A DNA stretch of 64,000 nt from the NCBI RefSeq assembly GCF_037038585.1, contig NC_092526.1:42543501-42607500 (forward strand), written 5' to 3'. The stretch is from Patagioenas fasciata (Eukaryota > Chordata > Aves > Columbiformes > Columbidae). The notes under the pieces are model-generated. The model was not told the DNA's origin, did not search any database, and saw only the letters and a list, made by a program, of their open reading frames with translations. Shown in pieces: positions 16,593 to 64,000 of the stretch (position 1 is its first letter; every line of letters begins with the position of its first letter). The translations under genes and the position numbers were made by a program.

Positions 16593-16598
16593 AATAAA
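16593..16598 (+). terminator. Poly(A) signal, left QRICH2-like gene
   Basis: AATAAA in gctgcaataaatggcg corresponds to the signal at 57,318 in the right copy. In the left copy about 235 bp just before it, including the last coding exon, are missing. If the donor at 16,361 is not used, the exon-15 frame stays open through this signal to TGA at 16,630-16,632. Confidence 0.7.
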
Positions 16599-16632
16599 TG
16601 GCGATGGGCAACCAAGTGCCGGTGTGGTCTGA

Positions 16633-18405: not shown

Positions 18406-18546
18406 TGCAGGAGTAAGAAAAGGATGCTGCAGGAGTAAGAAAAGGATGCTGCAGGAGTAAGAAAAGGATGCTGCAGGAGTAAGAAAAGGATGCTGCAGGA
18501 GTAAGAAAAGGATGCTGCAGGAGTAAGAAAAGGATGCTGCAGGAGC
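18406..18546. repeat. 22-bp VNTR, six copies
   Basis: The unit caggagtaagaaaaggatgc plus tg occurs six times almost without change, followed by a partial copy. The paralogous place at 59,127-59,183 has only two copies. Confidence 0.95.
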
Positions 18547-24611: not shown

Positions 24612-24649
24612 CCAGAACCCACCTTCATCGTCCTCCAGCACAGCTCAGC

Positions 24650-29925: not shown

Positions 29926-29940
29926 AAAGTGCAAAACCTC

Positions 29941-31387: not shown

Positions 31388-31766
31388 TTCCACCCCTTAT
31401 AATATGCCTTTCACTGAATACTTAAACCTTATCAATACAATCTATCAATACAATCTAATTAATCACTACTACTATATATATATATACATATGTACATATA
31501 TACACAGGAGTAATTAATCAGTGGACCATCCTTTGAAAAGTTCATTAAGTTCATTTTGTCACAACAGTCTCCCAGGGCAGGAAAAATGGTCCAAGTGCAT
31601 CTCATGACCACTGTTTGTGGGTGAAGGACACCAACTTCGAAGAAGGTGTCGGGCGCCACTCGAAGAAGCTAGCTCTAGTTTTATCACCATTGTCTTGATC
31701 TGAAAGAGACTTATTAAACATTGTTAGTGCGGCAATTCACATCATACAGTTCAGCATTGCATATTT

Positions 31767-34700: not shown

Positions 34701-34892
34701 CTCTGCAACAGTCAGTTCCTGGGATCCTCCAGTCACTCCAACAATATTGATGGATTGCGTTCCTTTATAATTAGAAGGAATTATTGTGCACTGAGCACCA
34801 GTGTCCACTAAAGCTTTGTACTCCTGGGGTTGTGTTGTACCAGGCCATAGTATTTGTACAGTCCAATAAACTCTGTTATCACTTTCCTCCAC
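31767..34892 (-). pseudogene. ERVL protease-reverse transcriptase-RNase H-integrase, broken
   Basis: The first frame (34,892-33,852) carries the aspartic protease motif ALVDTGAQ at about residue 27 and the reverse transcriptase active site YIDDI near residue 305. A stop at 33,851-33,849 and frame changes near 33,667, 33,310 and 33,020 break the thumb/connection and RNase H parts. From 33,023 to 31,767 a long frame holds the RNase H end (CTDSW), an integrase HHCC-type region, and the catalytic core with QIDYTTLP, ESDYGTHF and a GKIERYNG segment. It opens in the same frame as gag's last part, across an in-frame TAG at 34,916-34,914, as in ERVs that link gag and pol by readthrough. The multiple breaks make it non-functional. 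Confidence 0.88.
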
Positions 34893-34913
34893 CTGGTTGG
34901 AGGCAGGGCACCT

Positions 34914-36781: not shown

Positions 36782-36926
36782 TTTGCTTTAATAACACTAA
36801 ATAATATCCGAAGCAAACAGACGCGCAAGTATCACAACTCTATGAGTTGGCACGGTGCCAAGAAAATTGAAAGGTACGTCAGAGCAGTAGAAGAGCCAAA
36901 AATCTCCAAATTTACCCCTTTCTCTT

Positions 36927-36944
36927 GCCCCACGTTGGGCGCCA
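36927..36944 (-). promoter_or_regulatory. Primer-binding site, tRNA-Lys type
   Basis: On the minus strand the 18 bases TGGCGCCCAACGTGGGGC match perfectly the complement of the tRNA-Lys (CUU, Lys1,2) 3' end. Six bases separate it from the LTR end. Leucine tRNA is the usual ERVL primer, so lysine priming is a distinguishing feature of this family. Confidence 0.93.
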
Positions 36945-36950
36945 ATTATC

Positions 36951-37600
36951 TGTCGAGGGTTAGGATTGCGGGGTGAAAATCAAACCCTGGCAGATGTATT
37001 GTTAACCTCCTCTCCCCCCCACTTCCCCCTTTTGCCCCTCCCTCTCCCCCCTTCTCACTCAGGACAGGCAATCGGGAGGGAAAGAAGGACAGAGAGAAGA
37101 GAGTTGGAAAAGTTAAAGATGTTTTACTGATGCTACTAATACGAATAGAGAAAATAATACAAAATATACAAAACCAATCTTGTAAGTCTCAGCAACTGCA
37201 GAGCCAGCACCCAAAGTCCTGGATTAGACTCTGTAGCCAACCGGAGCTGGATTCAGTCTGTCACTGGCCTCAGTTCGCAGGGACGACCAGCAAGGTCCTC
37301 TCCTAATGTCAGCCATGAGGAAAAAGGAAAAAAGGAACGAGATCCTCGTGATCTCCCACTTTTATATGAAGTATTCACGTGAATGGAATGTTATACACCG
37401 TTGGTCAGTCTCTCAGTCATCAGTTTTCTCGTTGCCCCTCTCGCGAGATGTCCATCCGTGCTTATCAATAAGTTTGCATTCCATTGCTGGGTTTAACCAA
37501 AACATGTGTTGGGTTCTCCAGGAAAATGCAGCTAACATGAAGGCTTTAGCTGACAGGCAAATTCACTAAAAGAGAAACTTGTTTTAACAAAACCAGGACA
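36951..37600 (-). mobile_element. 5' LTR of the ERVL provirus
   Basis: The 650-bp LTR is bounded by TG and CA and by the target duplication cagcc on its outer side (37,601-37,605). A TATA box (minus catataaaag) lies near 37,365. Confidence 0.93.
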
Positions 37601-39819: not shown

Positions 39820-42800
39820 ATGACCGCCAAAGATGAGGAGGACCTGCCGGCCTATTTCCTCAAGCAGTACAGGCAGAACCTCCTGCCCTTGCTCAGGTGA
39901 GGGGACTCCTCCACCCACCTCCATGCCCTCCATCCTCTTCTCCTGTTTCCTCCATCCCTCCTTCCCCCACGATGGCAAACTCCCCGATCTCCACTGCTTC
40001 AGTCTCCTCTCCTCCCTCCCTTGCCCAGCCCTGTTCCTCCCTGTGACCCCCCTTGCTTTGTCAGAGGGTTCCCTGCTGGGGATGCCGTGCTGCCAGACGG
40101 GATCTGAGATGGTGCTGGGTTGCTCTGGCCCGTCATCCCACTCTGGACACAGTCCAGCACCCTGCCCAGGCACCAGACCCAGCGTGTAACCTTGATGGAA
40201 ACTTGTGTGGCAGGAAACACAGGCTGACAGAGGAGGGCTCCCTGTCTCCATTTGTTCACCTCCAGGAGAAGAGGAAAGAAGCCAAACAGGTGCAAAAGGC
40301 TCTGGAGGAGAAGCGAGAGGTGAGAAAGATGGGAGGGTGCTGGGGCATGGTAGGGGTGTTGTGTTTTGTTGGAGGGCAGCAACGGGCAGGTGAGTGGCTC
40401 CGGGTGCGGGCGGCCACGTCACCCTCGCTCTGGTGCTGCCAGGCCTTCAAGGAGAAGATGGCTGACATAGCCCACCGGTGGAGGGAACTCCATGCCAAGA
40501 AGGACCAGCTGAAAACCTACATGGAGAAATCTATGAAGAGGTTAAAGGTATGCCTGCTCCTGATCAGCTCCGCTGAAGTGACCCTGAGCCACAGCGCCAC
40601 CTTCTCACCTCCCCTGGGGAGACAGTCTTGGGCCAGCACTTCTGTCCAAGCCTCCCTTGAGCCTGGCGGGGTGAGGAACAGGACTGGCAGGGCATGGGGG
40701 TTTGTACTGCAGATGGGGAAAGCCCTGAGAGCGCTTGGGCAGCAGGGAGCTTGTCCAGTACCAGTGTGATCTCCTGAGGGCCCCAAACATCCCCCAAGAA
40801 GGATCTCAGCCTGTCCCCACTGTTGACACCCAGGTGACTCCCAAGGGCAGATCCCAGTAGGTCTGAAAAGCAGAGTTCTGTCCCAGGTGCCTGTCTCCAA
40901 GAGCCAAGGGTCAGTGCAAGAGGGGTAGCCATGTGTTGTGGGGGTGAAATTTAGGGTTCTGCTTACTGCAGAACAATGCTTAGATGTCTCAAAGAGAAGT
41001 GCGACGTGGAAGAGTTCGGTGGCAGGTTCACTCTGTTATTCACTGCGTGGGGGAAATATGTCAAGCCGAACGCTGCTGACCTTCTCTCCAGGAGCCTGCA
41101 CCCTGATAACCGTTCACTCCGGAGTCTGTGTCTCGAGCTCCAGAGGTGAACTTTCAGGCGAGGCCATATCCGTCACAGTGCGAACTCTCAGGATTCTTCT
41201 CTCCCTGAGAACAGTTTGCTGCAGAGTCTGTATTTTGGAGCTCTGGAAGCAAACTTCCAGGGCAGGCCTGTACCACACCATGTTGAACAGGGAGGGAAGA
41301 TGTTCCCCAGGGTTCTGCAGCACTGCTCTGTCCCCTGTGAGTGTATCTCCTCCCAGTGCTGCTGGGTGACCCAGCTCCATCTGCCCTTGCCTTCCTTTCC
41401 TTCTGTGTGTGTGTATTGATGGGGGAAACATCACTAGGAAGATGATCACCTGCGAGTCCAAGCTCTGAAGAAAGCCGTGAGAGAAAGAGAGGAGAAAACA
41501 CAAAAGGAGATGGAGCTTTTGAGGGCTAAGAAGAAACTCGAATCCCTGAAAAAGGAACACCAGAAGCTCGGCAGCCAAGTGCAGAAGCACTCCATCTTCA
41601 AAAACTACCTGGAGGATGTGGTGAAGATCTCCCCACAGGTGAGTTTGGACATGAGAGACAGATCATGGCCTCAGGGAGGGCTGTATGTGGATGTTAAACC
41701 TGGAGGAGATAAGGCAAGTCCAGGGAAATCATGACACTTGGTCAAACCCAGACACCTCAGGTGGGATGGGAGGAGGTTCCCTGCAAGCCAGGCGAGCCAA
41801 GGGGACCAGAGTGAGGGGAGGAAAAGCAGAAAAGGAGATGAAGGCTTGAGAAAACCCAAGAAAAAGTGTTAGAAGGGGGAACAGCACAGAGCTGAGGGGC
41901 ATGGGGACCCCTTTGTGTCACTGTTTCACGTGACATGGATGGTTTGGGAGAAGGGCCAAGCTGCCCGAGAATGGGAGCCCAGGCAGCTGTCGGGAAAGCT
42001 GAGCCTTCTCTCAAGGGTGTGCGGGCGCCCCTCCCTGCATCGCTTGCACTCCTGCGGCCTGGCTGCCCCACTCCCATGGCTGGGTGACTTGGCCCTGGCA
42101 GCTGCACTTGTGGTTTCTTTCCTATCAGAGCACTGGGGGGTGGTACAACATCTCCCCTTGCTGCTGGCAGTGGCAGCTCTGGGACCGGCACAATGGGGCC
42201 ATCAAACAGGGAATGTGGCGACGCTCACAAACCAACTGGGGCAGCAGGCTCGCCAAGAGGGGAAATCTTTCAGCTGGGGGAGGTGTTGTCCCTGGTCAGG
42301 ACAGGGTGCCAAACAGCACGAGACTTGCAGTCATGAGGGGAGGGCAGGGGCATTACTAAACCCAGGATCCTTGTGCTGCAGTTTGAGGACATCCAGGACA
42401 TCATTTCCCGCTACAAGCTGCTGGTGAGGACGTGCAAGGACCTGCAGCAGTCCCAAGAGAAGGACAGGGAAATGATGGAGCAAGCCAAGGTGCTCCTGGA
42501 TCAGTATGAGGCAGAGAAAGCAGCTGAGATCCTGCAGTGCCGAAATGAGCTGGAGCAGCTCCAACGACGTTTTGTGCAGGCTCAAAGTGATGTCCGCTTC
42601 TGGGTGAGGAACTGCGGGATGGGCAGTGGAAGATCTCCAAGGCCTGGCTGGGTGAAGCCACAGGGTCATGGCAAGGCACAGTGGCAGACTTTGTAATTGG
42701 AGGAGATGCCTCATTTCATCCCTGCAGCAGGGGGTGCAGAATGACAAATGACAGACCAGGTCTGGAGCAGGTTATGTCAGGGCTTAAAACAAGGCCCTCA

Positions 42801-44334
42801 CAAAACCGCCAGGATCTTTCCCTTCTTGTTTGAACTCACAGTCAAAAGAGATCTGCTACCCAGTCCTTGGGGAGGTTTGCCTCGGCACAGACCCCAAGCT
42901 TGCTCCATCACACGCCTGTTTGGTTTGTCTAGCCTGGTCAGACTCATTTCCATTCACCATTCCTTGCAGTATCATCCCTGTCATGGGGCTTCACTGTGGA
43001 CCATCTCGTGGTCTCCACTGTTCATGGCTCGGGCCTCAGAGTGAAGCTGGTTTTGCTGATTTTTTATTTGTTTTCATCCTTTGCACAGCATCTGCACACC
43101 AGGGCTCACCCCTTCTCCTCCCTCCTTCCCAGTCCAACAATGACCCAACTGGTGGTCATCTGGGCTGTACCAAGGCACATGAATGTGTAGAAACGCGCAC
43201 AGCTCTGCTGGCCTCTGTTCCCTTTGCATCACTCTGAGGGGGTCTTGCCAAATTCCCTTCCTGGATACTCCAGGCTGCAGGAGTTGAGTCCCACCAGGCA
43301 AAGCTGGAAAGCGCGTGGTCTGGGCGGGTGGTGGTGGGATGCGCTGCCCCCAGGGTGTCAACTATCGGGGTATCTGGAGGACCCACTAGAACGAGGGGTG
43401 CAGGAGCTGGCAGAGAGATGGGGCTGCTCAAGGAGCAGCTGTGGTAGTTCCTGGATCTGCTTCCACCACACCAAGCTGAACCAGCTCCAGCATAGCCCTG
43501 GGTAAGGACAGGTTCTTCCTAGCAAAACAAAGGAGTGTGGAAGCCAGGCTCTCCAGCACTGAAGCAGCATCTTTGCTGGGACATATCACCATGCTGTGTG
43601 TCTCTCCTTCTCCTCCCCTCCTCAGACTGCTCGCTGGGCCGACATCCAGAACAGGAATGCCAAGAATGCCCTGATGCTGACGACTATGAATATGGCCGTC
43701 CACAACCTCTTCCAGTGCGTGAACACGCAGCTGAAAGCCAAAGTGCATGTGCCGGAGGATGACAGCCTCAGACAGCTGGACATGGTAGAACCAAGCCAGA
43801 CCCCCTCCCTGCCCAGAAAGAGGAGCAGTAATGACCCTCAGCTGCCCAAAGGGAGGGGAAAGCCCAGAGAAATCAAGGTGCCCAACAGACACTTCCCTTT
43901 CCCCCTGGGCTGTCTCTTGGGCATGGGGAATGGGCGGAGGACACCAGGCAAACCTGTCTCGTCCCAGGAGGCAGAGCAGGGGGTGGATGCCTGTTGGGAG
44001 CTGGGCAGGCTGGGGCAGGGGGTGCAGATCCACCCATGGCTATAGTCTGGCTTCATTCACCCCTCTGAGTCACCTGTAAAACCCCATTGTGGTGGTGCAG
44101 ATCCAGCAGGGCAATTGCCTTCATCCTCCTGCTCACTTTGGTTTGTGAAATTTGCACTCCAAAAGGGCCAATGGGCTCCTCTCTGCCTCCTGTTCCCACC
44201 CCTGCTGTGACCTCTACCATCTCTCTTCCCTACCTTAAATTCAGCAGTCTATCCTGGACCTCAAAGGCATTGTTACGGAGGTGAAACGGAAGGGCATGGA
44301 GAGCCACCGGCGAGCAGCTAAGTGTGAGCATTAA
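39820..44334 (+). CDS. CCDC42: CCDC42-like gene, seven exons, apparently intact
   Basis: Exons are 39820-39896, 40214-40319, 40443-40547, 41438-41638, 42382-42603, 43626-43784 and 44245-44334. All have AG/GT boundaries and compatible phases, giving 960 bp, i.e. 319 residues, close to human CCDC42 (316). The start opens MTAKDEEDLPAYFLKQY, like the EEDLAEYF start of the family. The centre is a long coiled coil (KRKEAKQVQKALEEKRE; FKEKMADIAHRWRELHAKK; EDIQDIISRYKLLVRTCKD; ARWADIQNRNAKNALML). The end is LDM-QSILDLKGIVTEVKRKG...EH with TAA at 44,332-44,334. CCDC42 and its relative CFAP73 are axonemal or sperm-tail attachment proteins. The residues favour CCDC42 over CFAP73. Decayed relatives lie inverted at 22,433-24,611 and 25,974-26,078. 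Confidence 0.88.
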
Positions 44335-45797: not shown

Positions 45798-47462
45798 AAA
45801 AAGCAACATTTCTGCTTTGCTGTAACATAGGGGAGCCCCTCGCTGCCCCCCTAATTGGCTTGTGGGAGTCAGCAGCGTGGAAGGGAACTAAAGCCTTGGA
45901 GCAAATGTCCTGCTTGCACTGAGAGCCCGCGGCCACCAGCCAAAATACCCTGGGTCTGTCCCCGCGGGGCACCCACCCCCTGGCTCAGCACCGCCTTGTC
46001 CTCTTAGTCCCTGCAGCAGGACGAGCAGCTCAAGTGCCTCCAGGCCAGCATCATGCAGCTCCAAGAGGACTACGAGAAGTTCAGCTCAGCCCTTGCAAAC
46101 CTCCAGCAGGATGGCCAGCAGGAGCAGAAGGACATCAAGGTGGGTGGCTGTAACCAGCAGGCAGAGCCCAGACTGGGACCCCAAGGGATCTGTCCCCCTG
46201 CCACCCTGCTCGCAGCCCTGCAAAGCTTCCCGATGCCTTTCCTGGAGGTTTCTGATGGGGTGGGGAGGGGAGGCAGGGGGTGCTCGGCTGGCCGGGGGGC
46301 AGCTCCGACCCTGCCGTGGCGTCACGGGCTGCTGTCTGCCTTGGGAGGCTCTGTCCCAGGCCCTGGAGAGGCTCAAGAAGCAGAAAGCAGACAAGGAGCA
46401 GCTGCTGGTGCTTGGAATCGATGAGGTAGGGGCTCGAGGGGCCCTGGTGCCAGCCAAGGGTGTCCCGGGCAGGGTGACAAACGCCCCTTGTCCCTTGGGT
46501 GCCGGCTGGCAGAACCAGCCAGGGGGAGGGAGGATTTCCAGCCCGGCTGCGGGTCCCTTGCCAGGTCCCTCTGTGACCCCGAGTGCCTTTGGCTGGTGGG
46601 AGCAACCCCACGGGGGTGATGGGGTGAACAGGGCCACGTAGCCACTTCTCCCTCTCGCGTTGTCCCTGGATCCTGTCCCCACCGCTCTCCCGCCTTTCCC
46701 CGTTGCTAGAAAGCAGACAAAGCCGCCCTGGCTGACAAAGTCAGTCGCAGCCAGTTTGAGGCATGCGAGGAGCGGCTGAACAAGTCGGTGGAGGAAGTGA
46801 CGAGCCGGGTGACGGGCCAGGAGGAGGGCTGGCACCGGCTCCAGAAAGAGCTGCAGAGACAGATGGACTGCAAGGTGAGGGCTCGTCCCCTCCACGCAGA
46901 ACTGGCACCTTGGGGGCCTGGCAGCCTGAGGCAGCATCCTTGCGAGGGTGCCCCCTCCCGGCTGTCCCCCTGGGGACCGCCATGTCCCATCCTGGGGTAG
47001 ATGGCTGAGGGTGTCACCCGTCCACAGCTGGACCGCTGGGAGGGACCCCGGGAGCAGCAGGAGGAGCGGTGGAAGAGCCTCAGCGGGCAGCTCCAGAAGG
47101 CGCTGCAGCCAGAGCGTGACGATGCCGCTGGGATTAGGAAGTGAGTGCGATGGGGACAGCGGTGCCTTTGGCAGTGCCGGCCCTGTTCCTGCTGGCTGTC
47201 CCAGCTCGTGCCGCTGTGGTACCCTGGCGTGGGAGCCGTGTGGGCAGCGCCCCTGGGGATGCTGAGCAAGTGGCTGTGCCTTGTGCTCCTGCCAGCTGCA
47301 GCTTCCCAGTGATGGAGGAGGCACAATGAGGGGGCACGTGTGGGAGGAGCCCTCCCGAACCAATCTTGGGGGGTGGGTGCAGAGGCTTTTTGTGGCAGGG
47401 GACGGTGTGCAGGTGGGGCTGTGCCCCCCAGGAGCTCCCCAGCCCTTTTCTCCCCTCTCCAG

Positions 47463-47524
47463 GCAGCTGCTGCCTGGTTTCCATTGCCTGTCCTGCGATC
47501 GGCCCCTCCACATGCTGGCGCCTG
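47463..47524 (+). pseudogene. QRICH2: Split exon of right QRICH2-like copy, part before the provirus
   Basis: After the acceptor ctctccag (ending 47,462) the exon reads to cctg at 47,521-47,524. That tetranucleotide is repeated at 56,317-56,320 as the retroviral target duplication; the exon's last bases (gacc) and its donor gtgagt follow. The left copy has the same exon uninterrupted at 15,773-15,838. Confidence 0.92.
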
Positions 47525-48145
47525 TATTAGCAATCAGGACACATAACCACGGGCGTAGTTATATGCGATGCTTTATTTCAGCGCTGGGAAACCAGGGGTT
47601 CGCACCCAAAACTGACTTCCATCGTCAGTTTAGGTTACACAGTATTTATGCAGTCCATTCACATACATATTCATATATTCATTAGGATCATTAGAATATG
47701 TAACAGTTGCTCAACATTTATTGCAACATCGATTGCAACACCTTGGAACTACTTTGATCATGCGCAGTGTCCTCTGGTGGTCTTTCAGGGGGTCTTCAGG
47801 ATGAAGTAAGTAGTCTTCATCGCCTCTGTCCTTTTCACCTTTTGATGCGGCACATGCGCACTACTCTATAATTGCACAACTGCTGACTAGCTTAATTTCC
47901 AGAGGTACTGTATATATTTCTCCTCATTCTAAGCATATTTGGGCTAAGATAAACACTAGGTTGATAAGATAAAGGTATGCTCAATTCCCTTATTAGGTAA
48001 AACACGGTATGCAAAGGTTGAATCAGCCTGGTACCCATCCCAGAAAAGAACATCTTGTAAAATTGATCCTGTTAGTCTCCTATTAAGATTGACTGTATTG
48101 ACTGTATTAGTATAATCCCCTATAAAATTGATTCTATCTCTAACA
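47525..48145 (-). mobile_element. 3' LTR of the class I provirus
   Basis: The 621-bp LTR begins TGTTAGAG and ends CTAATA on the minus strand. The last dinucleotide should be CA; a single change (plus-strand TG to TA at 47,525-47,526) has altered it. The purine tract aaaggggggaca (48,157-48,146) lies just upstream on the minus strand. Confidence 0.93.
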
Positions 48146-48212
48146 TGTCCCCCCTTTGAGAATGCTTTTCTATTCTTAGACAATGCATTCTCACCTTAAT
48201 CAACTATTTTGA

Positions 48213-49886
48213 TTATTCTTCATAAGCTGGAGGGTTTTCGAATACAGGATTATCATAATTCCTTCTCAAGACACTAAAAATGTGATCACTTGTTTGACTA
48301 AGTACACGCCTAATACCTACATACAATAAGCAGAGAAGCACAATCACAATTTCAAGTACCACTACACTTTCTAGTAGTGAATGTACCCATCCTCCCAAAT
48401 TTAAGCCAAATGTCTTCAACAGAGCGCCTATCCAGCTCTGTTCTGCATCCTGCTTTGCTTTTTGCAGCTCCATCTCTGTTTGGGTCAGTTGGGAAATGTC
48501 CTTCTCAACTTCTGAAGTTACGTTTGGAATATGGATGCAGCAATGATCAATTTTGTCTTTCAAATATCCACAGACACCATTTTCTTTCAGTAACATTATG
48601 TCGAGTGCCATTCTATTCTGCAAGGTCATTTTAGTCGTAGCCTGTAATTGTATATTAAGTTCCCGAAAAGCCTTTTTAGTTATTCTAGCCAATCGATCCA
48701 TTTGCCCAATCAATTTATCAATCATTTCTCTATTTCTGTAGGCCGCAATTGGTGCAAACAAAGATTCTAGTGCCCAGCCAAATTTAACACTGCTTGATGG
48801 TTCGTGCCACACATCTTCACCTACCTCTCGTTTGTGCCTAACCTGTAGAAGTTCTTGCCTATTTTTCAAGGGTGACTTTTTCCAAATAGGACATAGGGTC
48901 GGCAGTCCCAGAGTAATTTCCCTTACTGGTCCTCCTATTGGTAGGTGAGTTGTCCAGGTCCCATCACTTAAGGCCCAAACCAGATGTCCCACACTACCTA
49001 TAACGCCTCTACAATCAATTCTATCTCCATCAATGCCTATTTTGGTTGCTTCCTTTGGATCCAATTGTTTCTGACAAATGCAACCTGCAATTGTTGCAAC
49101 TTTAATGATGGACAGAGGTATTTCTTTTACATCTGTCTGGCAGGTTATTACTTGTGAACAATTCCACCATGGTACTGTTGTTCCTCCTGTTACATTGGAC
49201 CACCGTACACACCATGGAAATGCTTCACTATATTGGTATTGTTGTACAATACTCAGTGTCCACATGTTATTCCATGATTCAGTTCTATTTTTGCTATTTT
49301 GATCTTTGCATTCCCAGTAAGTCCGTTCAACCTTTTCATTTACCGTCTCTTTGGTCCAGCTTTCATAGGTGCACTTGGTTTTCCACCCAGCACCTGAACC
49401 AAGTTTTCCTCTGAGTCTCATACAATCTTCTATTGTCATTACTTCTGTCTGGGGTCCGCTTTTTACCCATCGCTCAGTTGGGACTTCTTCTATTCTAGTG
49501 TGAGATTCACATGCTATTTTACTAGTTTTATTTACTTCTGGTAAGGTGGTAGATATTATTCCCCACTGTATTGGATCTTCAGCCGATTTTGGAATTGGAA
49601 GGCAAGCAGTGATGCTACTGGTATTCTGGGTCAATGCAAAATCTCGAATTAGCCCTATCATCAGATTCTCTGCCTGATTCTGTACGCTTTGTACTACCTG
49701 TGGCACCTGGGTACTTTCATTATTGTTTACTGCTCTTCCTGGCCTAATTTGCAATCCCATTTGAATTGTCCCATTTTCCCACCGTTTATCAGAGGCCTTG
49801 TGGAATAGAGTGGCACTTCCCCCTCCAATTTTCAAAAGTACAAACACTCTAACCAAAATCACGATTCGGTAATGAAAACCAGACAT
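48213..49886 (-). CDS. Retroviral envelope, open frame of 557 codons
   Basis: The start at 49,886-49,884 is chosen because it overlaps the pol stop (TAATG) and opens a signal peptide (MSGFHYRIVILVRVFVLL); the frame also has an ATG 17 codons upstream. The surface subunit has several N-glycosylation sequons and ends at a furin-type site (RHKR). The transmembrane subunit has a hydrophobic stretch FGWALESLFAPIAAY set back about 14 residues from the cleavage site (an internal fusion-peptide-like position), a heptad region, CX9CC (CGYLKDKIDHCC), a membrane anchor (VVVLEIVIVLLCLLYVGI) and a tail ending in NPPAYEE. No stop or frameshift is seen. Whether it is expressed is unknown. Confidence 0.85.
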   Translation of the reverse strand: MSGFHYRIVILVRVFVLLKIGGGSATLFHKASDKRWENGTIQMGLQIRPGRAVNNNESTQVPQVVQSVQNQAENLMIGLIRDFALTQNTSSITACLPIPKSAEDPIQWGIISTTLPEVNKTSKIACESHTRIEEVPTERWVKSGPQTEVMTIEDCMRLRGKLGSGAGWKTKCTYESWTKETVNEKVERTYWECKDQNSKNRTESWNNMWTLSIVQQYQYSEAFPWCVRWSNVTGGTTVPWWNCSQVITCQTDVKEIPLSIIKVATIAGCICQKQLDPKEATKIGIDGDRIDCRGVIGSVGHLVWALSDGTWTTHLPIGGPVREITLGLPTLCPIWKKSPLKNRQELLQVRHKREVGEDVWHEPSSSVKFGWALESLFAPIAAYRNREMIDKLIGQMDRLARITKKAFRELNIQLQATTKMTLQNRMALDIMLLKENGVCGYLKDKIDHCCIHIPNVTSEVEKDISQLTQTEMELQKAKQDAEQSWIGALLKTFGLNLGGWVHSLLESVVVLEIVIVLLCLLYVGIRRVLSQTSDHIFSVLRRNYDNPVFENPPAYEE

Positions 49887-52800
49887 TATTGTGATGTAAT
49901 CTTGAGCGTGGTAGGACCCACTATCTGCGATTTCCACAGTCTTGGAACTCTTTTCACTCGGGTATAATGTATCCAGGAGTCTACTCCAGCAACTTTGACT
50001 GCGGTGAATGTAGTCAGGAGTACTTGATAGGGTCCGTCCCAGTGCTCTTTTAAGGGTTCTTCATTCCAGGTTCTTATATACACCGTGTCTCCAGGCTCTA
50101 TATCATGTACCGGATTCTCGAGCGCTAGTGGGCGATTCCGCACTAGTGCGGATCTGAGTCGATTCAATGTCCTGCCAAGAGACAACACAGAATTGTGCAA
50201 GTCCTGATTACCTTTCACATGTACCTCTGGGTTTGGGTCTGGTGCTTCATATGGTTTGCCATACAAAATCTCGTATGAACTTACTGACATCCCACTCCTA
50301 GGTTTAATCCTAATGCGCAGCAATGCTATCGGCAAGGCCTGAGGCCATTGAATTTTTGCTTCCTGACAGATCTTGCTAAGTTGCCTTTTTAGAGTTTGAT
50401 TCATTTTCTCCACTTGCCCACTAGACTGGAGTCTCCATGGGGTATGTAACTCCCATTTAATTCCCAAACGTCTGCTGATTTCTTTTACTAATTCTGCCAC
50501 AAAGTGTGGTCCCCTATCGGAAGATATCCCCAGTGGTACCCCAAATCTAGGGATTATTTCCTTTAGTAACCATTTTACAGTTTCTTTTGCTTGATTGGTG
50601 CGACAAGGGAAAGCTTCTGGCCATCCTGAAAAGGTATCTACCCCAACTAGTATATACCTGAATCCTCGGGTTCTGGGGAGCTCTACATAATCTATTTGCC
50701 AATAATCCCCAGGTTGTACACCTGTCTTAATTTTCCCCATTTCTATTTTTCTTCTTACTAAAGGACTATTTTTCAAGCAAATTTCACACTTAGCTGTAAT
50801 AGACTTTGCCATTGTTAACATCTGGACCGAGATAATTTGTTTTCTTAGGTAAGCTACCAATGCTTCTGCACCCCAGTGACACTTCTGTTGTTCCGTCTGA
50901 AGTATTCCTCTCATAATAGTGGTTGGTACCACAACTTGTCCATTGGTGGTTACATACCACCCAGAATTATTTTTGCTGGCTCTTACTACACTTGCCAATT
51001 TTTCATCTTCTGTAGAATATTTAGGTGGTTCTGAAGGTAATAAATCAATTGCTCTTACCTTCTGGGAGACAAGGCCCACCATTGTTCTTACTTGCCGTGC
51101 TACTGACCGAGCTGTTTGATCAGCAAGCCGATTTCCCTCGATGATTTTTGATGTTCCACCTTGATGAGCTTTACAGTGCATTACAGCAACTTGTGATGGC
51201 TTTTGAATGGTCTTAAGCAGGTTCAGTATCTCCTCCTGGTACTTCATGTTTGTTCCTTGTGAAGAGAACAGTCCCCACTCTTTCCAAAGGGCTCCATGCA
51301 CATGAACAACTCCGAAAGCGTATTTTGAATCAGTCCATATATTAACTTTCTTGTTTTCGCTGAGTTCCAATGCTCTGGTTAAGGCGATTAACTCCGCTTT
51401 TTGTGCTGAGGTGTTTGATGGTAAGGGCTTAGCCTCAATTACTGTCTTGGCAGTAGTGATGGCATATCCTGCATACCGCATTCCGTTCTCCACAAAGCTA
51501 GTGCCATCAGTAAAGAGTTCCCAGTCAGTTTCTGCCAGCGAAGTGTCTTTCAAATCAGGGCGACTTGCGTGGGTATATTCGATGACTTCCACGCAATCAT
51601 GTTCCAGGTCTCCTTCTTCAGTACCTGCACCCAAAAACTCAGCAGGGTTCATTAGGTTAGTAGTTTTTAGAATAACATTATCTTGTTCTGTCAGAATTAC
51701 CTGGTATTTCATCATTCTGCTTGCGGAAAGCCAATGGCCCCCCTTTTGTTCCAGTACTGTTGTCACCATATGGGATACAAACACTTCTATCCTTTTTCCC
51801 ATAGTTAGTTTTCGGACCTCCTGGATCAGTATTACTGTAGCAGCTACCGCCCGTAAGCATGCCGGCCACCCAGCACTTACCGGATCTAGCTGTTTAGAAA
51901 AATAGCTGACAGGTCTTTTCCAAGATCCCAGTCGTTGGGTTAATACCCCCAAGGCAAGTCTTTGTCGCTCATGTACAAACAACTGAAAATCTTTGCTCAA
52001 GTCTGGCAGACCCAAGGCAGGTGCCTGCATCAAAGCTGGTTTCAATTTCTGGAAAGCCTCTCGTTGTGGCTTTCCCCACACTAAGGTCTTATTCTTCTGT
52101 GCCTCATATAAAGGTTTGGCAATAAGTCCATAGTCCATGATCCAGAGCCTGCACCATCCTGTCATTCCTAAAAAGGATCTTAATTCATGTAAGTTTCGTG
52201 GTTCTGAAATAGCACAGATAGCATGCACACGGTTTGTGTTTTCTGCTGTCCTTGAGAAAGCTCGCATCCTAAATAAATCACAGTCTCGGATACAATTTGA
52301 GCTTTATTTTTCGATACTTTGTACCCATTCATTCCCAATTGGTTCAGTATTTCAATTGTTACCTGGATGCAGAGCTCTCGCGTCTCAGTCACGATCAAAA
52401 TGTCGTCTACGTATTGTAGCAACAGGTACCGTTGTCGAGGGATTATGATGTGGCCTTTCGTAGTCCATTCCTCGAGTTCCTTAGCCAACTGATTTCCAAA
52501 AATAGTTGGGCTATTCTTGAATCCTTGCGGAAGACGTGTCCAGGTTAACTGAGTTTTCCTTCCATTGTGTGGATTTTCCCATTCAAAGGCAAACAATTTT
52601 TTGCTTTCCTGGTCGAGGGGTATGCAGAAGAAGGCATCTTTTAAATCAAGTACAGTAAACCATTTATATTTCTCCTTCACAGATGTTAACAAGGTATATG
52701 GGTTTACAAATACCGGATAAATGTCCTTAGTGATCTGGTTTACAGCCCGCAAATCTTGGACTAATTGGTAACTACCATCAGGCTTCTTTACTGGAAAAAT

Positions 52801-53427
52801 TGGAGTATTATATTCTGATTCACATTCCTCTAGAATTCCATACCTCAAAAATTTTTCAATTAGAGGCACTATTCCTAACCTAGCTTCTAGTTTCAGTGGG
52901 TTCTGCCTCAACTGTACTGCCTTGGCATCTTCCTTCAGTTCCACTTTAACGGGCTGGGCCGTTTTCGATTTCCCAGGTATGTCAGTCGCCCATACCATGG
53001 GGATCACTGCCTCCTCCACAGCTTGTGGTACCTCTGCTACTGGGTTTTCTTTTAACAGCAAAACTTGTCCTACCTTAGATTCTGGAATTTTCATTACCAG
53101 GTTTCCATTCTCGAATGTTATTACAGCATCCAATTTGGTCAATAAGTCCCGTCCTAAAAGGGAAACTGGACAATCTGGAACATATAAGAACTCATGGGTT
53201 AACTCCTTTTCTCCAAAACACAGATCTAAGGGTTGTAGGAATGGCTGTACTTCTTCCTTCCCTGTGGCACCAACAATCGTTGTCTTTTTATTACTTACTG
53301 TTCCCTGTAAAGAATTTAGCACAGAATAAGTAGCCCCTGTGTCCACCAAAAATCTCACATCCTGATCCCCCACTTGTATCGTCACCAGGGGTTCCTTACT
53401 CTGGGTATCTGTTTCTGTGCTGCCATA
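49886..53427 (-). pseudogene. Retroviral protease-reverse transcriptase-RNase H-integrase with one frameshift
   Basis: It follows gag in the same frame after a single UGA. Protease motif LVDTGATYS lies near 53,350. Reverse transcriptase shows LDLKDAFF and YVDD (near 52,410). Between about 52,270 and 52,180 the frame changes: one frame runs to 52,180, and the next is open from 52,267 to 49,886. The second part carries the RT connection, RNase H ([18 protein letters not shown]), an integrase zinc region and the catalytic core ([28 protein letters not shown]). It ends in a basic tail ([10 protein letters not shown]). A single small indel is the only break seen, and it prevents a full-length Pol. 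Confidence 0.9.
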
Positions 53428-53433
53428 TAGTCA
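53428..53433 (-). promoter_or_regulatory. Gag stop in UGA-CUA readthrough context
   Basis: The gag stop is TGA (53,433-53,431) followed by CTA (53,430-53,428), and gag and pol share one frame across it. UGA followed by CUA is a known context for efficient translational readthrough, and gammaretroviruses make Gag-Pol by suppressing the gag stop (usually UAG). Confidence 0.7.
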
Positions 53434-55065
53434 GCTGTTGTTATTATACTCCCCCAACACCATATTTTGTATTGCATTCCCTGCTGCGCTTGGTACCCGA
53501 CCCGTAGGGCCCGGACGATTCGGGCATTCATTTTTCCAGTGTCCTCCCTCCTTACAATAAGCACATTGATTTATACCAAGCTTTACAACAGGCCTCAGAG
53601 GAGTTCCCTGAACATTCCGAAAACCGCGCCCTCGGCCGCCTCTAGCTCCCCTGCCGCGGGCTTCCATTCCTATTCCCCTGCCTTGCCCTTGGACCAGAGC
53701 CAACAAGTCTTGCTGAGAACACCTCGACTGCTCCTTTTCTCTATTATTATAAACTTTCCAGGCTGTTTCTAACATAACATCCAGATCTCGCAATTGTGCC
53801 CCCTCCAGTTTCTGTAATTTCTTCCGAATATCATCCTGAGACTCCCCCAAAAAGATCAAAGCCAACTGGACCCTTGCTTGTTCCATTTCAATATCTAAAT
53901 CCATATATCTTTTTGCAGTTTCCTTCAATCTTTCTAAAAAGGCTGAAGGGGATTCATTCTTTTCCTGCCTAACATTATACAATTTTGACCAATTCATTTG
54001 TTTTGGCATAGCAGTCTGAACACCAATTAATAACCAGTCCTGATACCTCCGGAAGCGAAGCTGACCAGCCCCAGTATTATAATCCCACCGGGGTTCCTCT
54101 TTTGGGAAATTCTCATCAACATTACCGCCCACAGCCCCATTCCGAATATCCTCTCTTACTTCATCTCTTGCTACCCGTATAACCATATCTTTTTCTGTAG
54201 AATCCATTAATGTGTCAAGAATCACCTGCAAATCATCCCAATCGGGATTCTGCGTTTTAATTATCATCTTAATTATCCTTGCAACCTTGTCTGGGTTTTC
54301 CCGGTAAGGACCAGCTGATTGTTTCCAAATCATTAGATCTCCTGGTGAAAATGGGACTTTTACATAAACTGGTTCTCCCCCCACTCCTACCGCCTGTCTC
54401 AAGGGTGCTATTACATTTGACGGTTCACCTGCCTGTCTCAAGGGTGCTATTACATTTGACGGTTCACCCCCCTTTTGGGCTTCCTTTTCTCTGTTCCTAG
54501 TTCTGTGGGATATTGGTGTAGTTGTTACTCCTTTTACTCCGGTTGCTGCCCCCTCATCCCCACTGGAATCGATATCACTTTCAGTAAGATGCACAGGTGC
54601 CGAGGGTTTAAGGGGTTTAGGTGCAGAGGGTTCAATTTCTGAAGGCGCAACGTCTAAACACGGCAGATCTGAAGCGTTGCCGCGGCTGCTCTCTACTGCC
54701 AAACACGTTATGCATTTCTTTTCCACCGTACAGCCCGTACATTTATCATTAATACCGTTCCCCTGGACTAACATTAACCCACATTCCTTCATCCAGTCCT
54801 GTTTTTGTTCAAGATAGAAAAAGAGATCCACATACTGTACTTCATCCCATTTACCTTCCCTTTGACAAAACCTCATTAATTCAACAATAGTTCCATCTTC
54901 TAAAGTACCCTCCGGTGGCCAACGTACTTCATTAGGCAAGTCATATTCAGGCCACCAGTGAGTACAATATTCAATTAATTTCTTTTTACTCATAGATTGT
55001 CCAAATCCAGCCTCCTTCCAATGTTTCAACAAACAGTCTAATGGTGACATCTTTGTACCACACAT
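53431..55065 (-). CDS. Retroviral Gag, open frame of 544 codons
   Basis: The frame starts MCGTKMSPLDCLLKHWKEA, without the MG needed for N-myristoylation. Near residues 140-155 are two PSAP motifs (EPSAPKPLKPSAP), which recruit TSG101 for budding. A 14-residue stretch (GEPSNVIAPLRQA) is tandemly duplicated near residue 205. Capsid follows, with a major homology region (RQEKNESPSAFLERLKE) near residue 370. Nucleocapsid has an Arg/Gly-rich stretch and one zinc knuckle, CAYCKEGGHWKNEC, near residue 505. A single CCHC box and readthrough into pol are typical of gamma-type viruses. No break is seen. Confidence 0.88.
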   Translation of the reverse strand: MCGTKMSPLDCLLKHWKEAGFGQSMSKKKLIEYCTHWWPEYDLPNEVRWPPEGTLEDGTIVELMRFCQREGKWDEVQYVDLFFYLEQKQDWMKECGLMLVQGNGINDKCTGCTVEKKCITCLAVESSRGNASDLPCLDVAPSEIEPSAPKPLKPSAPVHLTESDIDSSGDEGAATGVKGVTTTPISHRTRNREKEAQKGGEPSNVIAPLRQAGEPSNVIAPLRQAVGVGGEPVYVKVPFSPGDLMIWKQSAGPYRENPDKVARIIKMIIKTQNPDWDDLQVILDTLMDSTEKDMVIRVARDEVREDIRNGAVGGNVDENFPKEEPRWDYNTGAGQLRFRRYQDWLLIGVQTAMPKQMNWSKLYNVRQEKNESPSAFLERLKETAKRYMDLDIEMEQARVQLALIFLGESQDDIRKKLQKLEGAQLRDLDVMLETAWKVYNNREKEQSRCSQQDLLALVQGQGRGIGMEARGRGARGGRGRGFRNVQGTPLRPVVKLGINQCAYCKEGGHWKNECPNRPGPTGRVPSAAGNAIQNMVLGEYNNNS

Positions 55066-55674
55066 ACCAACACAAAAGAGTAACGCAGAGACGGGTTAAT
55101 ACAGAAAGATAACACACGGATAACTTTGAAATCACCAGTCTCAACAGCGAACACAGGTCAAATTACCAGAACGATGATCTGTATTCACTGTTGAAACCGG
55201 CGACCCCAGACAACCAGATAAATAACCAGACCAAGTGGTGAGCCTGAATAACACAAATAACAGACCAGGTGTGCACAAGTAACCAGACCCTAGGTGCACG
55301 CAGATAACCAGACAGGCAAAACCAGAACCAGATAACCAGATACCAGATGCCGAACCTGCAGAGGTTTCCCTCTGTCTAACGGACGGCTGCCTAGGCAATA
55401 CCTCGGGAGCTCCCTGCCCAACCGAGCGTGGCTTTCGCCGCATCTGACCGGCAGGCTACCGGATGCCTGACCAGCAGGCTACAGGACCAGAACAGAACCA
55501 GACCAGATGGGTACCCAATAATCCAGGTAAAACAACAGATAAAGCACCTTCTTACCAATCAGAGGTCCGTCGTGAGCAGCAGAGAGCCGGTCGCGTCCGA
55601 CGCACTCCTCAAGAATACCTCGGTGCTAGCCAGAGCAGGATTGAGACACGAGCCGTCTCAGCAATGCCCGCGAG

Positions 55675-55692
55675 GTCCCATCTGGGTTGCCA
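55675..55692 (-). promoter_or_regulatory. Primer-binding site, tRNA-Arg type
   Basis: On the minus strand the 18 bases tggcaacccagatgggac match the complement of the tRNA-Arg(CCU) 3' end at 17 of 18 positions, using the tRNA sequence from memory. Three bases separate it from the LTR. Confidence 0.75.
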
Positions 55693-55695
55693 AAA

Positions 55696-56316
55696 TGTTA
55701 GCAATCAGGACACATAACCACGGGCGTAGTTATATGCGGTGCTTTATTTCAGCGCTGGGAAACCAGGGGTTCGCACCCAAAACTGGCTTCCATCGTCAGT
55801 TTAGGTTACACAGTATTTATGCAGTCCATTCACATACATATTCATATATTCATTAGGATCATTAGAATATGTAACAGTTGCTCAACATTTATTGCAACAT
55901 CGATTGCAACACCTTGGAACTACTTTGATCATGCGCAGTGTCCTCTGGTGGTCTTTCAGGGGGTCTTCAGGATGAAGTAAGTAGTCTTCATCGCCTCTGT
56001 CCTTTTCACCTTTTGATGCGGCACATGCGCACTACTCTATAATTGCACAACTGCTGACTAGCTTAATTTCCAGAGGTACTGTATATATTTCTCCTCATTC
56101 TAAGCATATTTGGGCTAAGATAAACGCTAGGTTGATAAGATAAAGGTATCCTCAATTCCCTTATTAGGTAAAACACGGTATGCAAAGGTTGAATCAGCCT
56201 GGTACCCATCCCAGAAAAGAACATCTTGTAAAATTGATCCTGTTAGTCTCCTATTAAGATTGACTGTATTGATTGTACTAGTATAATCCCCTATACAATT
56301 GATTCCATCTCTAACA
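55696..56316 (-). mobile_element. 5' LTR of the class I provirus
   Basis: The 621-bp LTR has intact TG...CA ends and lies next to the target duplication cctg (56,317-56,320). Minus-strand AATAAA lies near the U5 side (plus tttatt at about 55,744). About nine substitutions and no indels separate it from the 3' LTR. Confidence 0.94.
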
Positions 56317-57317
56317 CCTGGACCGTGAGTAACTGCCCCCTGACCCATCCCTGGCGTCGAGTGACACATGGGGTGCCACCTGCCAGGCACTGAGTACCCC
56401 GTGTCCTGTCCCACAGGGAGCGGACGGGCGAGTCCAGGTACCCCACTGTTCCACGGAGCTGCGGGGGCCCACACACCCTCATGCCCCCGCGCTTCCAGCC
56501 CCAACCGCCCAGCACCCCACGGCCGTCCCCATCCGGAGCCCGCAGCCCCAACAAGGTAGGGATGACGGAGGTGGGGAGGGGGATGCTGAGCCTGCGGGGG
56601 GATCTATCCGTGCCTCAGTTTCTCCAGGGAGAGCTGGCTGGGGGAGGGTTGTTGGGGGATGCGGAGTGGGGCCCCGTGTTTGGGTCACACGCTCTCCCCT
56701 TCCCAGAAGGACACGATGCAGCTTTCGGGCCAGGACGGCACTGATGGGAACCGGCAGGACGAGCAGCTCTCCATGATGGGGGGCTCTCAGCTGCCCACAA
56801 CACCAAGGGCCACCCCAGACACCACGACCTTGAGGAGCCGGCCAGTATGGCCCTGTCAGGGCACCGGGGGGCAGAGGACACCCTGCTGTCTGGGGGGACG
56901 GGTCTGTGCCCACAGCTGGGCAGGGCGGGACGGGAGTCTGGGGTCTGGGCTGGGATGTGGGGGCAGCACAGGCTGCTGGGGCAGCAGCTCCTCGTGGTGG
57001 AGCTGGAGGGAGCTGGGGGGACATGGGGGTGGTGCTGGCAGTGTGGGACAACAGCCTGTGTGCTTCAGGGTGGGGGAAGGACCCTGTTTGTGGGTGTCTG
57101 TGGCTGACCCTGCCCCTCGCCCCCAGGCACCCCCTCCTCGCTGCTCTCGGCCGTGCTGCTGCACCAACCAGTCCCGTCTCCCAGGCGCTTCACCCTGGCA
57201 CCGAGTCTGCTGCCGCCCATCCAGCCCCCCCACAGTGAATCACTCCCTGACAGCCGGGCAGGACAGGGGTCCCGGCCCCGGTCCCAATGCCCCGGGCGCT
57301 GAGCAGGCAGCGGCTCC

Positions 57318-57323
57318 AATAAA
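57318..57323 (+). terminator. Poly(A) signal, right QRICH2-like copy
   Basis: AATAAA lies 15 bases after the TGA that ends the terminal exon in its original frame (57,301-57,303). Confidence 0.75.
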
Positions 57324-57356
57324 TGGCGATGGGCAACCAAGCGCTGGTGTGATCTG

Positions 57357-59125
57357 AGTGGGGGTCCCTGGGGCAGGATGGCAGAAAGCCCTGCTGTGTT
57401 TGCTTTTCAGGAGAAAAATAAGCGCTAAAAAGGCACATTGGGGGTGCCCAGGTGGATCCGGTGGTACCCAGGGCGCCCCCAGAGGGAGCACTGGCAGCAA
57501 ACCGGTGGGCACCAGAGCAGAGCCAGCAAAGGCCCATCCTGCACCCCGGGTGGGGCTGACGTGTCCACGGGCTTCAGAAACACCCGCTGGGACTAACTGG
57601 GGGGACGGGGTGAGGGGGTAACCAGGGGGCTGTGCAAGAAGCCGGGCTAACTGTCGGCAGCCGGAGGAGGGGAGTGCTTTGCTCTGGGTCGGGGGACCCA
57701 GAACTGGGGGGACGCAGCAGCTCCGCGCCCCGCCCCGGGGTGCCCACAGCCCCATGTAGCAGCACTTTGCAGCCGCAGGAAAGCGCCCGGCACTTCCGGT
57801 TGATGGGCGCTCTGGTCACGCCCACAGCCCTCGGCTGACAGACGGGGCCCTCGTTTAATGAAACACCTGGGAGCAGAGAAGCTTCTGGAGCACTGACCGT
57901 ATACGGGCCCAGCTCGGATTCCCTTGGGCTTGACAAGGAGGCTGTGGGACCTTCCGGCGGTTTCGGTGCGAGGCTGTGGGCGGAGCGTTGTCCTCAGACT
58001 GCGGACCCTGCGGGAGCTCCCCGGGCAGAGCCCCCCCCGCCCCGCCGGCCGGTGGTTGTGTCTGCCGGGAAACCTTGCGGAGCCACCAGCTTTCGTGAGT
58101 GGGGATGTGCCTTTGGAATTGTCATTCAAAGGGTAGATGAGCACAGCTCGGCTTCAGCCAGGATGCCTCTGTGCCTTTAGTTTTTGTTTTTCCCTCACCT
58201 TCCCTTTCGTGCGGAGCGGCCCGGCCCGGGACGGGGTGTGTGGGTGTGTGTGCTGAGGGAACACCTCATACCCAGCAGCCTGCTCCGTGCCGCTACTCCT
58301 TGTCCCTGCATTATATACGATACACAAATGAAAAGCAAACGGGGGGGGGTGCGTGGGAGCAGGAGCGGCTGGGGGCTCCTGGGTTGGGCCTGACGCCTGC
58401 GGCGCCTCACGCTTTCCCGCTCCCGTCGCACCGCCTTCTTCGGCGCGGGCAGTGAAGCCACTGCACTGAGGCCGTGCCCCGTGCCGCCGGGGAGGAGGGG
58501 AGCTGGTCGCTCTGGGAGCCGCTCTTGGGAAGCGGGCGGCGCACGCCCCCGAGGAGGGGGAGTTAACGTCCTTCAAGTCCTCCTCCTCGGGTACCGGCGC
58601 CGTTCGGGCAGTGGCTGATGAGGTGTCTGTCGCGGTGCGGGGAGAGCGCGGCCGCTGTGCCCTCACGGTCTCTGACGCAGACAGGACGGCGGCCGCGTGG
58701 AGCGGCGCTCCAGCCCCTGGAGGAGCTCGCGTGGCTGGGTGAGGGGACGGGACCCCCCTCCAGCCTCGCTGCCTCGCAGGGAACCCCGTTCCCCTTTTCC
58801 AAACCTCCCGTTCCCCCTCAGCTCAATCCCCCTTTCCGAGCCAGAGGGAACCCGTTCTCTGCCCGGCCACCCCCATCTTGGGGTCACTTGTCCCTGGTTC
58901 CTGAGGTTCCGCCGAGTGGGCGTGGGGTGGGTTTGGGTCGGGCTGAGCCGAGGCCCGGATCCCGGGGGGATGCTCTGCAGGGAACACCCCCCGCCCCAGG
59001 AGCACTGCTGCTCCGGTTTATTTTCGTATTTCCTGCGCCTAGCACTGCGCCCCAGCAGTGAACCAGCAGACTGCAGGTACCGAAGGGATCTCCTCCTCCT
59101 CCCACCCCTTAAGGGGCGGTAATCA
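57357..59125. repeat. GC-rich segmental duplicate of 16,633-18,405
   Basis: It is colinear with the left copy. Differences include small indels and loss of the short ATG-bearing segment that lies at 17,930 on the left. No coding gene is supported. Confidence 0.75.
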
Positions 59126-59126
59126 C

Positions 59127-59183
59127 TGCAGGAGTAAGAAAAGGATACTGCAGGAGTAAGAAAAGGATGCTGCAGGAGCTGGG
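59127..59183. repeat. 22-bp VNTR, two copies
   Basis: The unit caggagtaagaaaaggatgc plus tg is present twice here, against six copies at 18,406-18,546. Confidence 0.9.
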
Positions 59184-62412: not shown

Positions 62413-63100
62413 ATATAACTTCAGAAACAAGTTTCATAACTTGTTACATAGAACTTAACCAGCTTTTCCTTTTTACAGGTTCAGAGCCTGTGCCTCATTT
62501 GGTTATATCTGTAAACACTGAACATCTCCTCAGCAGGAATCACAACTGCATTTCTCACAGATCCAACTTTCTGCTATGCCCAAATTCACCACTTTATCCT
62601 ACCTGGCCTCTCTCAGCTCTCAGTCGTACTCTAAATGCTCGTGAGGAGAGTTTGCAATACGAAGTGATGCAATTAACTCTTTGAGATACTTCCCACTGCT
62701 TTACTGAGAGGATGGAATTCACTTGGGGGGCCTTAAGAACAATCCTGCCAACGCTTTGCTAAGCTGGAGCAGAATGTAGACGCTGCTGCTGTGATACATT
62801 ATCAGGTCTTGTCGGTCTCCCAACTCTCCTGAAATACGAAGCATGACACTAACGGGATGGTATAGTCTTCTTAATCAATCCAGCTGTCAGTCAAGTTCTG
62901 CCCCTTCCATGCCCCCCTTCCTTGATGCCTTCCAAAAAATGAGAGTGCTAGCTGTGATAAAGAAAGGTTTCTAACTGCAGGAAGGAAATAAACTCGTTTT
63001 CAGCCAGAGCAGTACAGCCACTGCAGACAAGGACACACAGGGCTCCACAGCTCTGCTTGTGTGGAAAAGCATCCCACTGCTGCTTCGCAGACAGACTCGG
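62413..63100. other. No gene seen
   Basis: Single-copy sequence between the old ERV and the 0.89-kb unit. No recognised exon, LTR or repeat. Confidence 0.4.
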
Positions 63101-63110
63101 CTGAGCTGAC

Positions 63111-64000
63111 ACCAAGTCCTGCTGTGTCGCTGTCACCCGCAGAGTGCCCGCATCCTCACCACGGTAGCGGGCATTGTGACAAAGGTTCTACGTCAGCTGG
63201 GTGTGGCAGCCAAGTGCCCGCTAGGGGAGAGGGAGCCTGTCAGCCCCGGGCCTGTCACTGCCTGCTGTCCCCCCTGTCAGCAGCGAGGCCTCTGAAAAGT
63301 TTCCAAAACATCCCCAGACTTGGGTCGAGCGCGGCCAAAAGTCTCCAAGAGACAAGTCAGAAAGAAGGATATGGAACAAAGGGAGAAAGCGAAGGGAGCA
63401 AGTCAAAGGGAGGGAAGAGGAAAAAGTAGTGCTGGGCTGCAGGACTGAAATGGAGGAAAGGAAAGACAAAAGCCAGGAAGCAGGAGAGTTTGAGAAAAGG
63501 AGAGAGGAAAGAAGAGACATGCAGCCAGACGAGGGCTTAGTGAGAGAGGCTGGCACAGAGAACAGGATGAGAAGAAAATAAGGCAAGGCAAGGCTAGGCC
63601 TAAGGACGTTTCCTTGCTTTATATTTTCTAGCACATTCATCTGGAGACGAGCAGGAAAGCCATCAGACCTGATGGATTAGGCCCAGTCTAAAACCCCGGC
63701 TACTTGAGACACTTAGACTAAGCCTAAAATGCAAAGATCTCTCCATGAGGATGGTTTTTATACTCTACTTCCACAATCTGCTGGCAGTACAAAAGAAAAA
63801 GCGGCAGGTCTCCTTAGGCTGAGTCATGGTGGTTTGGTGCAGAGACCATGCATATCATGGGAATAGTTCAGCATTTCTGCTCTGGTTTTCAGTGTATTAC
63901 ACCAAAACACCCACCTGATGACATCATTTCAAGAGCAACAGCAGTAATTTGCAGAATACAGCTTCTTTGGGAAACTGAGAACTTGCTGAGCTGACACCAA
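63111..64000. repeat. ~0.89-kb tandem unit, inverted copy, provirus-free
   Basis: The reverse complement matches 29,941-30,735 joined to 37,601-37,765. The motif ttggtgtcagctcagc (on the minus strand) occurs at the window edge and again near 63,111, giving a period of about 889 bp. The place where the ERVL provirus sits in the other copy (minus tctctgtgccagcctctctc, about 63,540-63,560) is uninterrupted. Confidence 0.85.

Follow-up and report, generated by a model that had tools for sequence, protein, structure and literature searches.

The window analysed here is a stretch of 64,000 nucleotides of Patagioenas fasciata DNA (contig NC_092526.1, positions 42,543,501 to 42,607,500 of the forward strand; positions below are counted from its first letter). 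It carries two copies of a QRICH2-like gene, and exon 12 of the right-hand copy is split by a gammaretrovirus-like provirus in antisense orientation. The original prediction was of one young insertion at one place. What is found in the genome is a set of occupied copies that have one site, one target-site duplication (TSD), one mutated proviral end and their flanking sequences in common.

The provirus and its target exon

The provirus occupies 47,525-56,316 on the minus strand and is recognized by a pair of long terminal repeats (LTRs), a TSD and Pfam domains. Both LTRs are 621 bp long, with inverted ends TGTTAG/CTAACA. The 5'LTR (55,696-56,316, minus strand) reads TGTTAG...CTAACA, and the 3'LTR (47,525-48,145, minus strand) has a mutated outer end, CTAATA where CTAACA is expected, i.e. 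a change from CA to TA. The two differ at eight of 619 aligned positions and, with the terminal base added, at 9/621 or 1.45%, in agreement with the ~1.4% first estimated. The tetranucleotide cctg, also foreseen, flanks the element at 47,521-47,524 and 56,317-56,320.

All proviral genes are on the minus strand. The gag gene (53,431-55,065) is open over 544 amino acids and holds an exact 39-bp tandem duplication (54,392-54,468), the length of which is a multiple of three. Its stop codon, TGA at 53,431-53,433, is followed by CTA, a context found at the read-through stops of other viruses. Protease and reverse transcriptase (RT) continue in the gag frame beyond this stop (52,180-53,430), and RNase H and integrase are encoded at 49,886-52,303; because the pol frame shifts within 52,180-52,303, pol is broken in the window copy. 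The env gene (48,213-49,886) is open from its first ATG (49,886-49,884) and bears an RHKR site, an LQNR motif and C-X9-CC. A presumed primer binding site (PBS), TGGCAACCCAGATGGGAC, lies at 55,675-55,692 and presumably corresponds to tRNA-Arg, and a presumed polypurine tract lies at 48,146-48,158, both also on the minus strand. Pfam domains consist of Gag_p30 (E=5e-42), an aspartyl protease, RVT_1, RNase H, the integrase core, an integrase C-terminus of the murine leukaemia virus (MLV) type and the transmembrane (TM) part of env (TLV_coat). An Rfam search of the window gave no match at gathering scores.

To which retroviruses is the element related? The Gag_p30 capsid and MLV-type integrase C-terminus are those of class I, gammaretrovirus-like elements, as are the arrangement of gag and pol in one frame with a single stop between them and the 4-bp TSD. 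Gammaretroviral env proteins are typified by CX6CC in TM and CXXC in the surface subunit (SU); in the provirus TM has C-X9-CC and SU has no CXXC, and the element is therefore termed gammaretrovirus-like and not Gammaretrovirus. C-X9-CC is present in 30 of 36 env relatives and is thus a trait of the clade, not damage; every relative with a named species comes from a bird. The top-scoring RT relative is from Geospiza parvula (74% identity over 96%), and the highest identity among named matches is with Columba livia (RT 86% over 61%; env 79% over 69%). The likeness to avian gammaretrovirus-like endogenous retroviruses (ERVs) lies in RT and env sequence and in C-X9-CC, the comparison being one of sequence. 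Scans of viral contigs with RT, gag and RNase H-integrase queries yielded no relatives.

The left QRICH2-like gene (10,843-16,632, plus strand) was modelled with 14 exons and 958 amino acids, exon boundaries being picked by eye at AG/GT sites that preserve one open frame. A DUF4795 match at residues 591-789 (E=9.8e-54) assigns the model to the QRICH2 family, to which excerpts of PMC6347614 ascribe a role in sperm as a protein of the flagellum. Its exon 12 (15,773-15,838, plus strand) is uninterrupted and represents the empty site, as originally described. Only exons 8-14 are present in the right copy (45,807-57,357, plus strand). Homology starts at 45,807, equivalent to 14,111 on the left and within intron 7, and tblastn found no exon 1-7 near it; the right copy is therefore truncated. 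The last exon differs between the copies by indels of 1, 10 and 231 bases. The provirus lies inside exon 12 of the right copy (47,463-56,324, plus strand), at the position first proposed, eight bases before the donor: the remainder of the exon (56,317-56,324) is CCTGGACC, directly ahead of GTGAGT. The exon frame runs through the junction to a stop at 47,683 within the LTR, and the peptide spanning the exon-LTR junction is contained in none of 276 database proteins. The uninterrupted left exon reads WDW at 15,803-15,812, and the interrupted right copy retains CDR; of 60 database exons matched, 56 have CDR at this triplet and 4 have CDQ, as counted by a pattern that fixes the neighbouring residues and leaves very divergent exons uncounted.

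In pigeons, QRICH2-like (DUF4795) genes have been massively amplified. The DUF4795 region, used as a query, returned 132 proteins; 120 of them were listed, and pigeons (Columba guinea, C. livia, Patagioenas fasciata and Caloenas) account for 115 of these, ostrich and lizards for the other five. In C. livia, a QRICH2-like gene (LOC135577017) and a retroviral gene (LOC135577015) are assigned to contigs of equal length (23,867,768 bases), and the two may mark one and the same insertion. In a tree of 28 proteins chosen from the 120, the two window copies pair (99/94) and then join three P. fasciata proteins (100/99). The window's own assembly (1.454 Gb, 359 contigs), which was the genome searched throughout, contains at least 90 empty exon-12 sites at three mismatches or fewer, the left copy of the window included; at least one fetched empty copy, on contig C8, is absent from this list, so that 90 is a lower bound. 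Contig C22 carries 61 of the 90, many of them ~20-24 kb apart. Together with 16 occupied sites, this makes at least 106 exon-12 sites. DUF4795 is common to the left model and QRICH2, a mammalian sperm-tail gene; unlike QRICH2 as known, the family has many members in pigeons, and the interrupted copy of the window is without exons 1-7. No description of a multiplied QRICH2-like family in pigeons was found in the literature searched. Nearly identical tandem gene arrays in two Columba genomes are mentioned in excerpts of PMC10849363, the main text of which has no word starting with 'glutamine'. A PDB search with one piece of DUF4795 gave no match.

Occupied copies and tandem series in the genome

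The left flank of the provirus in the right copy (47,000-47,520), used as a query, gave 142 first-look candidates. Forty were scored, every one at 97-100%; 12 of these fall at occupied junctions and the other 28 do not. At all eight loci returned for the query, counting the window, the same provirus is inserted at the same base, and the LTR junction is absent from all six empty copies that were fetched. A 30-base pattern spanning the left junction occurs at 16 places, each with the mutated LTR end. The reversed control of this pattern had no match, and an unmutated end, detectable at one mismatch, was not present at any left junction. The right-junction pattern occurs at 30 places, with the TSD in all 30. 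This amounts to 34 loci, 12 with both ends, 4 with the left only (three on C14 and one on C20) and 18 with the right only, the counts being dependent on the mismatches allowed in the patterns and inclusive of near-identical small contigs. None of the left and right junctions found are one LTR apart, and thus no solo LTR was detected at the exon-12 site.

How far does the similarity extend beyond the junctions? The window arrangement, including the truncation point, is matched by 14 of 15 fetched left flanks at ~98% (two are without 1.1 kb and one starts at 42,727). Among the 15 right flanks fetched, 11 match the window over ~6.5-7.4 kb at 96-97.5%, one of them in two pieces, and four do not. 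As kilobases of flank are common to the copies, one insertion appears to have been copied along with its neighbourhood. The left flank that differs belongs to a copy on C14 (L025, at 5.1 Mb), which continues as a full-length gene and matches the left copy of the window from 15,834 to 9,327 at 97.6%; the flank is 1.7% from the empty copy of the window and 2.0-2.7% from other occupied copies. Because this occupied copy sits inside a full-length gene, the insertion may predate the duplication that produced the truncated right copy. We thus infer that the target was probably a full-length gene and that truncation followed.

The provirus is also present in tandem. A piece of gag gave 326 first-look candidates, and 31 of 40 scored places are in series, with a spacing of 8,172 bp or its multiples. 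The PBS pattern has 295 matches at three mismatches or fewer, 90 of them exact, and 65 of the 90 exact units make up 13 series of 2-14 units (14 on C340, 10 on C298, nine on C13, eight on C299, five each on C271 and C6, and seven pairs). Periods are 8,135-8,179 bp, mostly 8,172; the internal region of the window provirus plus one LTR is 8,171 bp, the period expected where adjoining units have an LTR in common. Both inner LTRs that were fetched whole, on C340 and C13, are a single LTR between the end of env and the PBS. The exon-12 right junction ends seven of the 13 series, namely the nine-unit series on C13, where the order at the edge is LTR-TSD-exon 12, and pairs on C6, C8, C10, C12, C47 and C160. 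On C298, C299 and C340, pieces lying past the first unit counted all show env running into an LTR, and these series are therefore longer than counted. This anatomy points to unequal LTR-LTR exchange as the mechanism. A second ERV in the window served as a control: it has 1,524 first-look candidates, and the 40 places listed include a pair on C11 spaced by 8.7 kb but no series with the element's own unit length (~6.2 kb). No report of such proviral series in a bird was found in the open-licence literature searched.

Origin of the copies

It is highly probable that one insertion spread by segmental duplication and, as the structure of the series suggests, by LTR-LTR exchange. The history would begin with a single antisense integration of an avian gammaretrovirus-like provirus into exon 12 of a QRICH2-like family member, and the end of the 3'LTR would have mutated early, from CA to TA. 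The provirus would then have been duplicated onto many contigs within a segment that also held the truncated QRICH2 exons and several kilobases of flanking sequence, and unequal LTR exchange could have converted single proviruses to tandem series of ~8,172-bp units with LTRs in common. The large series that are not anchored at exon 12 would stem from the same insertion, judging by 99% gag identity and the likeness of their LTRs.

Could the copies and the series be a product of assembly, through haplotypes left uncollapsed and repeats wrongly joined? Small contigs that are nearly identical (C96, C97, C298, C349 and C352) speak for this, but nine representative copies outside the near-identical cluster have left flanks 1.2-2.5% apart and sit on contigs of 17.6-56.1 Mb, and the nine-unit series lies within a 29-Mb contig and ends at exon 12; an artefact is thus quite improbable as the explanation. 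The history first put forward was that a single young insertion, perhaps polymorphic, entered the right paralogue once QRICH2 had been duplicated, and the intact TSD, the LTRs only 1.45% apart and the empty left paralogue agree with it. It is very improbable, since its junctions recur at 34 loci and border tandem series and since flank homology extends over kilobases in most fetched copies; unless the assembly copies are artefacts the single-copy claim is already refuted. There is even less likelihood of an integration hot spot, whereby many independent insertions were made at one base of exon 12 in different paralogues: paralogous targets are many, given the 90 empty sites, and occupied and empty flanks are intermixed in the flank tree, but one mutated LTR end is present at all 16 left junctions and the copies also have in common flanks that extend beyond QRICH2 homology. 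Mobilization of a QRICH2-plus-provirus unit through RNA, by retroviral read-through and transduction, would account for the joint movement of host exons and provirus and is scarcely credible, as introns and kilobases on either side move too, at similar identity, and the LTRs are internal to the unit.

Several observations weigh against the spread of one insertion by duplication and exchange, or against parts of that history. The copies on C6 (55.1 Mb), C96, C97, C298, C349 and C352 are nearly identical and perhaps include duplicate haplotype contigs, so that 16 and 34 may overcount the loci. The flank and LTR trees are star-like and mostly do not resolve the order of the copies (C97, C298, C349 and C352 were left out of the LTR tree), and in the flank tree the occupied copies form no clade apart from the empty ones. 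The order of insertion before truncation is based mainly on the single copy L025, in which the diagnostic sites are mixed, so that recombination between copies could have made it; the first part of the table of diagnostic sites is based on one empty copy. Six of the 13 series, among them those of 14, 10 and eight units, are without an exon-12 end where counted, and their link to the insertion is one of sequence identity only. Gene conversion could have homogenized the LTRs and masked a greater age. All of the evidence comes from one assembly.

What do the LTRs say about time? Among the 12 two-ended copies, LTR pairs differ at 3-12 of 619 positions: 8 in the window, 3 on C11, 4 on C17, 6 on C6 (46.7 Mb), 6 on C18, 10 on C16 and 12 in each of the six near-identical copies. 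Counting this group as a single value gives seven values with a mean of 7.0, or 1.1%. The substitution rate in birds is ~2-3e-9 per site per year, at which 1.1% corresponds to an insertion age of roughly 2-3 million years. No inner LTR position is fixed between the 5' (n=12) and 3' (n=16) LTRs; the nearest is column 578, with C in 13 of 16 3'LTRs and T in all 12 5'LTRs. Only the terminal base is fixed, being mutated in 16/16 3'LTRs, and every one of the 12 loci with both ends has CTAACA adjoining the PBS in its 5'LTR. Since the mutated end alone is fixed, either copying started soon after the insertion or gene conversion between LTRs wiped out older differences. The original prediction placed the insertion later than the QRICH2 duplication, to be checked by comparing LTR with paralogue divergence. 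Overall the comparison holds, as 180/5312 between the paralogues exceeds 9/621 (p=0.007), but the adjacent 1.7-kb left flank, at 44/1718, shows no clear excess (p=0.12). The dating is thus weak, and with an occupied full-length copy on C14 the insertion may be the older event. According to excerpts of PMC5080718, the Patagioenas-Ectopistes lineage and Old World pigeons diverged ~16 million years ago.

The divergence of one copy's LTRs, which for one insertion ranges over 3-12 of 619, can mislead a call of a young or polymorphic insertion, and so can a neighbouring empty paralogue. An empty exon, a single provirus, duplicated blocks and tandem series coexist in one genome, so that how a retrovirus gives rise to a satellite-like repeat can be tested directly.

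Satellite setting, other window features and known systems

The last 0.9 kb of the window (63,100-64,000) is a satellite with a monomer of ~885 bp, which has 2,938 first-look candidates in the genome. The same satellite is also present at 29,939-30,739, in the opposite orientation. In the C20 copy it takes the place of the right flank, and on C6, C16 and C18 it is found ~33-65 kb from the right junction. These positions suggest that occupied copies lie in satellite-rich, perhaps pericentromeric, regions, as K111 does in humans (excerpts of PMC4425911). A further possibility, which we regard as doubtful, is that the exon provirus is the founding monomer of a new satellite family of ~8.2 kb, recently expanded in satellite-rich pigeon regions, and that it spread in connection with the amplification of a gene family of the sperm flagellum, possibly via meiotic or sperm-competition drive.

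Other repeats are present in the window. The second ERV (30,735-37,600, minus strand) is different from the exon-12 provirus: its LTRs are 96.8% alike, a 5-bp duplication, cagcc, is apparent, and the pol domains fall into different open frames. An apparent solo LTR of its family is at 8,325-8,990, with a possible 5-bp duplication gggct. An inverted duplication (22,432-24,612 and 40,442-43,603) is 95-98.6% identical in pieces. A 22-bp minisatellite has 6.4 copies at 18,405-18,545, in the left duplicate, and 2.5 at 59,125-59,178, in the right one; a large minisatellite with units of 20-24 bp is at the start of the window (10-2,868).

Two human systems offer a comparison. K111 and K222, proviruses of the HERV-K (HML-2) family, have spread through pericentromeres by recombination, and K111 copies retain one TSD and one type of flank, according to excerpts of PMC4425911. 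The pigeon copies resemble K111 as there described in having one TSD and one flank (14/15 flanks on the left and 11/15 on the right); however, K111 sits in CER satellite and the pigeon provirus in the coding exon of a gene with many copies, and the pigeon element is gammaretrovirus-like, has a bird host and forms long tandem series besides. The tandem HERV-K proviruses at 7p22.1 and 6q14.1, as given in excerpts of PMC11807958, have three LTRs around two internal regions, and like the units of the pigeon series their adjoining units have LTRs in common. They consist of two units, whereas the pigeon series have from two to at least 14 and are present at many loci.

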